A stretch of 64,000 bases of DNA from Treponema sp. (GTDB lineage: Bacteria > Spirochaetota > Spirochaetia > Treponematales > Treponemataceae): assembly GCA_016286365.1 (NCBI GenBank), contig JAEESN010000002.1, positions 186,001 to 250,000 on the forward strand. The letters are read 5' to 3'. A program made the translations under genes and the position numbers. Every line of letters begins with the position of its first letter. Positions within the stretch are counted from its first letter, which is position 1. Below the pieces are notes generated by a model that searched no databases, was not told the DNA's origin, and worked only from the letters and a program-made list of their open reading frames with translations. Positions 47,760 through 49,123 of this stretch are shown here, in pieces.

Positions 47760-48992
47760 TTAAATATTTTTCTTTAATTCTTCAACCTTGTCTGTTTTTT
47801 CCCAAGGGAATTCTTCGCGGCCAAAGTGACCATAAGAAGCGCTCTTACGGTAAATAGGCTGCTTAAGATTTAAAGTTTTGATTATTCCCGATGGTGAGCA
47901 GTCAAAAACTTTTTCCACCGCTGCTTCGATTTTTTCTTTAGCAACAGTTTCCGTTCCGAATGTCTCTACCATGATAGAAACAGGTTCTGGTACACCGATT
48001 GCGTATGCAAGTTCAACTTCGGCTCTTTGTGCAAGCCCCGCTTTTACAACGTTTTTTGCGATGTAGCGTGCCATATATGCAGCCGAGCGGTCTACCTTAG
48101 AAGGATCCTTTCCGGAGAATGCACCACCTCCATGGCGGCCCATTCCACCGTAAGTATCTACGATTATTTTTCTACCGGTTAAACCTGCATCTCCATCCGG
48201 GCCGCCAGTTACAAAGCGTCCAGTAGGATTAATATAGAATTTTGTATCCTTGTCTAAAAGTCCTGTAGGCTCTAAAACAGGTTTGATTATTTCGTTTATG
48301 ATTGCTTCTTTTAAAAGCTCGTGGTCTTTTTTGTCATCTTTGTCAAAGTGGTTCGGTTCATGCTGATGAGAAAGAACTACGGCATTGATTCTGCAAGGCT
48401 TGTGGTTTTCGTCATATTCAACTGTTACCTGAGATTTTGCATCAGGGCGGAGCCACGAAAGCTTTCCTGAATGACGAAGTTCGTGTGCCTTAAGAAGAAG
48501 CTGGTGTGCATAGTAAACAGGGGCCGGCATAAGGCTTGGAGTTTCGTTACATGCAAAACCGAACATCATTCCCTGGTCTCCTGCACCCTGTTTTCCTTCG
48601 TATTCATCAAGGCCTTTTCCGACTACACCCTGGTTTATATCTGCAGACTGAGCGTGAAGGCGATTTTCGAAAATACAGGTGTTTCCGTCCAGTCCGATTT
48701 CCGGTGCGTTATATCCGATCTGGAGTGCAACTGAACGAGCAATTTTTTCTACTTCTGCGTTGAATTTTTTTGTAAATGCATCATCAATCTTTATGCTCTG
48801 AAAGCCTATTTCTCCACCGACTAAAATAAAGTTTGTTGTGGAAAAAGTTTCGCATGCTACGTGTGCTTCCGGATCTAAAGAAAGACAGTAATCAAGGATT
48901 GAATCTGAAATCTGGTCACAAAGCTTATCGGGGTGACCTTCCCCTACAGATTCAGATGTAAATAAAGTGTGATTTTTTGTTAAGACAGACAT
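47760..48992 (-). CDS. metK: S-adenosylmethionine synthetase
   Basis: A 410-residue enzyme making SAM from methionine and [21 protein letters not shown] (H20 at the active site), [12 protein letters not shown] and [20 protein letters not shown] are the family signatures. The frame is open up to 49130, but the ATG at 48992 is the true start: it has AGGAG 6 nt upstream, and the extra stretch contains the promoter and riboswitch. It begins a minus-strand run (SGNH, nth, mscS, HD, yhbY). The leader matches a SAM-II riboswitch, so the product would repress its own translation. Confidence 0.96.
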
Positions 48993-48997
48993 ATAAG

Positions 48998-49068
48998 TCT
49001 CCTGTTTAGCAAGATTTATCGGTTCATACAAACCGATCCCGTTCGCAATTTTGGATAAATCAACGGGG
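48998..49068 (-). ncRNA. SAM-II-like riboswitch of metK, with an inserted hairpin
   Basis: Read on the minus strand, a 6-bp stem CCCGTT/AACGGG (49067-49062 and 49043-49038) encloses GATTTATCC..AATTGC. Loop bases GATTTATC (49061-49054) are fully complementary to GATAAATC (49020-49013), forming a pseudoknot, and TTGCTAAA then runs into the AGGAG ribosome binding site (49003-48999). GATTTA-CC..ATTGC, GATAAAT and GCTAAA are the conserved SAM-II strings. Between the stem and the second pseudoknot strand a further hairpin, CGGTT/AACCG, is inserted. Confidence 0.85.
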
Positions 49069-49094
49069 TCTGGAAAACCAGTTATTCTATCTGT

Positions 49095-49123
49095 AATATA
49101 ATACAAATGCGTCTTACTTGCAA
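49095..49123 (-). promoter_or_regulatory. metK: metK promoter
   Basis: TTGCAA (49123-49118), a 17-bp spacer and TATATT (49100-49095) on the minus strand predict a transcript starting near 49088, with a ~95-nt leader that contains the riboswitch. The TTGCAA is palindromic and may also serve the divergent gene: on the plus strand it is followed after 17 bp by TATTCT (49141-49146). Confidence 0.6.

Follow-up and report, generated by a model that had tools for sequence, protein, structure and literature searches.

Does metK, the S-adenosylmethionine synthetase gene of this Treponema sp., carry a SAM riboswitch in its leader, and if so, of which class? An initial annotation of the window, meaning the whole stretch of 64,000 nucleotides analyzed here, had proposed a SAM-II-like riboswitch with an inserted hairpin that hides the ribosome binding site of metK. 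The strings that it named, a TTGCAA-17-TATATT promoter, CCCGTT/AACGGG, GCTAAA and AGGAG, are all correct in the sequence, as are their positions. The SAM-II-type element occupies window 48999-49067 on the minus strand, and its 3' end is the metK Shine-Dalgarno (SD) site. Read along the minus strand, the promoter is followed by CCCGTT GATTTATCC AAAATTGCG AACGGG ATCGGTTTGTATGAACCGAT AAATCTT GCTAAA C AGGAG, with these parts:

49118-49123, minus strand: -35 box TTGCAA (sequence, and promoter core in relatives)
49095-49100, minus strand: -10 box TATATT (17-nt spacer to the -35 box)
49062-49067, minus strand: P1 5' strand CCCGTT (covariation)
49056-49061, minus strand: L1 triplex strand GAUUUA, SAM-II positions 8-13 (identity with SAM-II conserved residues, PMC3764141)
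49053-49055, minus strand: putative P2a 5' strand UCC (complementary to the SD in 98.3% of alignment cells)
49045-49048, minus strand: predicted P2 (pseudoknot) 5' strand UUGC, SAM-II 20-23 (sequence and alignment complementarity)
49038-49043, minus strand: P1 3' strand AACGGG (covariation)
49018-49037, minus strand: P3, inserted hairpin ATCGGTTT-GTAT-GAACCGAT (arm-swap test, covariation and fold)
49011-49017, minus strand: rest of L3, AAAUCUU (from the SAM-II and SAM-V analogy, expected to run along P1 as an A-minor strand)
49005-49010, minus strand: predicted P2 3' strand and SAM pocket GCUAAA, SAM-II 42-47 (sequence, SAM-II pocket residues)
48999-49003, minus strand: SD AGGAG, with GGA 49002-49000 as the putative P2a 3' strand (sequence, alignment complementarity)
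47760-48992, minus strand: metK, S-adenosylmethionine synthetase, ATG 48992-48990 (Pfam S-AdoMet_synt N/M/C)

In 98 of 108 leaders from relatives, the promoter core TTG-N-TAnnnT lies ahead of the element, compared with 13% of shuffles.

Rfam 15 gave no match at gathering scores and, at E 10, none of relevance in the metK leader, RF00521 (SAM-II) and RF01826 (SAM-V) included; the window element did not reach the RF00521 gathering score of 36 bits. Over the whole host genome, RF00521 and RF01726 (SAM-II long loops, at E 10) yielded scattered weak matches, none of them at metK, and the best RF00521 match (18.4 bits, L001) was rejected because on reading it lacked the core strings. A covariance model of our own, trained on 20 same-genus metK leaders with the window left out, gave window 48997-49068 a score of 70.9 bits (E 3.4e-15), compared with 10.2 bits for the runner-up in the 64 kb, and had a single match in the host genome. 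The covariance search on which the initial annotation had hung its proposal thus came out negative with Rfam but decisively positive with the relatives' model. Because that model finds the element and compensatory changes abound, the missing Rfam match reflects the Rfam models themselves. Essentially, the element is real and the SAM-II class call is right.

RNAalifold, applied de novo to 20 leaders, recovered both P1 and P3. Among 20 relatives the covariation score of the two helices together was 0.541, compared with 0.215 for shuffled and 0.10-0.13 for slid controls, and two-sided changes were present in 9 of the 12 P1 and P3 pairs. A structure-fitted alignment of 55 sequences scored 0.699 versus 0.190 for shuffled controls, and all 12 pairs had two-sided changes. 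Compensatory changes in the P1 stem, sought among relatives, were found abundantly, and the proposed CCCGTT/AACGGG pairing (49067-49062 with 49043-49038) is borne out by strong covariation. A separate collection of 77 distinct leaders, in which P1 pairs occur as C-G, U-A, U-G, A-U and G-C, served as the sample for the arm-swap test. P3 starts 0-2 nt past P1 in 68 of the 77 and ends 6-8 nt short of GCTAAA in 62. The hairpin averages -8.3 kcal/mol, as against -3.1 +/- 0.2 with arms exchanged between species. When the window itself is folded without pseudoknots, P1 and P3 abut (z -2.7). Because of the covariation, the spacing and the arm-exchange energies, we conclude that P3 is a real helix. The inserted CGGTT/AACCG hairpin is accordingly present and covarying, but in the window it has 8 bp (ATCGGTTT/GAACCGAT, loop GTAT, 49037-49018) rather than the 5 bp first described. 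The loop C(GUAU)G (window 49029-49026) recurs in 42 of the 77 distinct leaders on a freely varying stem, an indication that the loop has a function or favors a particular fold.

The 8-base pseudoknot of the initial annotation, GATTTATC (49061-49054) with GATAAATC (49020-49013), did not survive comparison: despite full complementarity in the window it is not conserved. We rejected it because it is fully complementary in only 2 of 49 sequences, shows zero compensatory changes and has a pair that is disrupted in 13 of 20 relatives. It would also compete with P3, which takes up the 5' GAT of GATAAATC, three bases of the pseudoknot. In crystals of SAM-II, GAUUUA supplies the third strand of a triplex (U11-A45-U21, U12-A46-U20, G8-G42-C23; PMC3764141). 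From SAM-II crystallography, the pseudoknot is expected to join UUGC (49048-49045) to GC(U)AA (49010-49006), and would be continued by P2a, in which UCC (49055-49053) is expected to pair with the SD GGA (49002-49000). This prediction follows from identity with the SAM-II pocket, since every listed invariant residue (U10-12, U20, U21, G22, C23, G42, C43, U44 and A45-47; PMC3764141) is present in the window. P2 and P2a are complementary in 99.3% of the cells of the relatives' alignment (P2 UUGC/GC(U)AA 100%, P2a UCC/GGA 98.3%) and are nearly invariant in the clade, so that covariation neither proves nor disproves the predicted pairing. U10 of the pocket, reported as fully conserved in SAM-II (PMC3764141), is a G (GAGTT) in five relatives (L019, L020, L043, L122 and L131). 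The pseudoknot-free minimum-energy fold places an alternative hairpin, UCUUG/CAGGA (window 48999-49014), over the SD; this hairpin, which is not kept in all families, may possibly be part of switching.

With SAM-II (RF00521; structure 2QWY) the element shares P1, the L1 GAUUUA, a UUGC/GCUAAA pseudoknot of equal length (predicted here), all pocket nucleotides, a promoter just upstream and a SAM gene downstream, and with the SAM-II metX RNA from the Sargasso Sea it also shares an apparently translational design with the SD in a short P2a. It differs from SAM-II in its 8-bp P3 between P1 and L3, a hairpin that is not known from that class, in the silence of the Rfam model and in its spirochaete hosts. 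The single-stranded L3 of SAM-II, free of P3, is absent from the window and found in the short relatives L083, L119, L127 and L130; since P3 is present and covaries, we file the element as a SAM-II variant and not as a standard member. SAM-V (RF01826) likewise has P3 right after P1, followed by A residues that lie in the P1 minor groove (PMC6061858), and in the window P3 is followed by AAAUCUU; P2a over the SD and the translational type would be further common features. SAM-V differs in its 3-bp P3, which is longer here, in its P2 consensus UUGUGC/GCAC, the P2 here being the shorter UUGC/GCUAA, in its L1, which is of the SAM-II type here, and in its host phylum. The long-loop SAM-II forms invoked in the initial annotation are indeed a published family (RF01726; Weinberg 2010, PMC2864571), but the element is not of that form. 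It resembles them as a SAM-II relative with an enlarged loop and a GCUAAA strand; RF01726, however, was rejected because it has no match at metK and its consensus is single-stranded after P1, with no helix there, and the family is known from Bacteroidetes and marine samples (PMC2864571). We therefore class the element, by its core and P2 length, as a new structural variant of SAM-II inside a SAM-II/SAM-V superfamily, with P3 and the short P2a over the SD as its SAM-V traits. The SAM-II claim thus holds for the core and the extra hairpin, but not for the pseudoknot first named. The SMK box (SAM-III) and SAM-VI, in which SAM binding masks the SD and so controls metK translation, have folds unrelated to that of the SAM-II-type element.

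We consider it highly likely that the element acts on metK as a translational OFF riboswitch, built from a SAM-II core and an added P3. In the translational SAM-II metX RNA and in SAM-V, SAM binding closes P2a over the SD (PMC6061858). The layout here is the same: the SD is the aptamer's 3' end, P2a is short, and there is no space for a terminator ahead of the start codon. Because of this layout, repression of metK translation by SAM is the most likely outcome, and control through the ribosome binding site, as first proposed, gains support as likely. Transcription of the leader would start shortly past the -10 box, and P1 would form. Folding of P2 around SAM would close the short P2a (UCC with GGA); the closed P2a would cover the SD AGGAG, and metK translation would fall at abundant SAM. 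P3 would extend P1 at its base, probably through stacking, and lead into the A-rich end of L3, most likely serving as a structural brace outside the pocket. By analogy with these RNAs, the element very probably shuts off metK when SAM is plentiful; the anatomy, the P1 and P3 covariation, a conserved pocket and the location at metK are shown directly, and SAM as the ligand, the direction of control and the stacking of P3 are what we infer.

Alternatively, the element could be a SAM-V riboswitch with the same pocket and mechanism and a homologous P3, as the SAM-V position of P3 and the SD in a short P2a would allow. We regard this as improbable, given the different P2, the lack of an RF01826 match in the leader, and the P3-less relatives in the order, which best match RF00521 and not RF01826. 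Decidedly improbable is a correct fold that binds something other than just SAM, such as SAH or both compounds: several relatives have ahcY directly downstream, but only metK follows in the window, and U11 and U21, whose O4 atoms read the SAM sulfonium charge in SAM-II (PMC3764141), are kept. A conserved protein-binding or coding element is hardly credible. In the window the frame stays open upstream of the ATG, from TTG 49130 on and across the element, but the leader lengths of 128 relatives fall into all three frames (29/48/51), with the in-frame leader open in only 41, so that a coding extension of MetK was rejected; moreover, the pattern of conservation is that of the SAM-II pocket.

All 30 metK loci fetched (that of the window plus 29 others of its genus) have the same arrangement directly ahead of the gene. 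A strict pattern scan of 84,980 species, which looser forms outside spirochaetes could escape, returned 103 exact matches, and all 103 are in spirochaetes, in keeping with the host proposed at the outset. The matching records are titled Treponema, Spirochaetaceae, Spirochaetales or similar, are mostly from rumen and gut, and include T. bryantii, T. berlinense, T. ruminis and T. zioleckii; metK is directly downstream in 79 of the first 80 and in nearly all of the other 23. Model matches were found at E 0.1 in 58 of 393 genomes of a phylum-wide sample, and in 29 of the 49 same-genus genomes listed (~60%). Among the weak matches of the phylum search that were read (L133-L145, E ~0.002 and above), those other than known metK leaders were put down to chance.

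Related families of the order have a short form without P3, which RF00521 places correctly at 19-30 bits, below its threshold of 36; at the metK or ahcY-metK leaders of such order relatives the scores were 30.0, 27.4, 24.5 and 24.5 bits. The P3 form occurs in related families too. Some copies of the element in these families lie ahead of ahcY and then metK. On a MetK tree the states P3 (41), short (11) and none (37; counts corrected, with L275, L280 and L284 as short) are interspersed across the order, and short forms occur even inside the window's genus (L056/L303, L265). The simplest reading would be that a single core has gained or lost P3 repeatedly. The sampled metK leaders of one family (f5) are without the element, and those scanned had no other Rfam match.

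It is conceivable, if rather doubtful, that these RNAs form a subclass of their own that bridges SAM-II and SAM-V. P3 with its recurrent C(GUAU)G loop would then be a second functional module, such as a protein or tertiary contact site tuning the switch, gained and lost repeatedly on one SAM-binding core. Under the preferred reading, a SAM-II variant controlling metK, SAM-II-type riboswitches can now be assigned to metK of Treponema and relatives, for which Rfam reports none; we found no report of SAM-II in spirochaetes in the open-access literature. Here a SAM-II core has the hairpin that separates SAM-V from SAM-II, and a single order includes forms with and without it. This argues for one superfamily that embraces SAM-II and SAM-V and has its insertion site after P1. 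With about 100 natural P3 variants and P3-less relatives at hand, the role of P3 is directly testable.

A second metK, divergent and sharing 54-57% identity with that of the window, is present in several genomes of the genus (L068-L074); the leaders of these copies are without the element, and those scanned had no other Rfam match. In Spirochaetes ADurb.Bin215 (L223, 1493-1554), a P3-form element precedes a gene (MELCVNWSKAIPRF...) for which Pfam gave no match to the first 60 residues. In Spirochaetales RH-23may17-786 (L123/L242), two tandem hairpins replace P3, and directly downstream of the element, in the place of metK, lies a gene for an AAA-type ATPase, which one would not expect a SAM switch to control.
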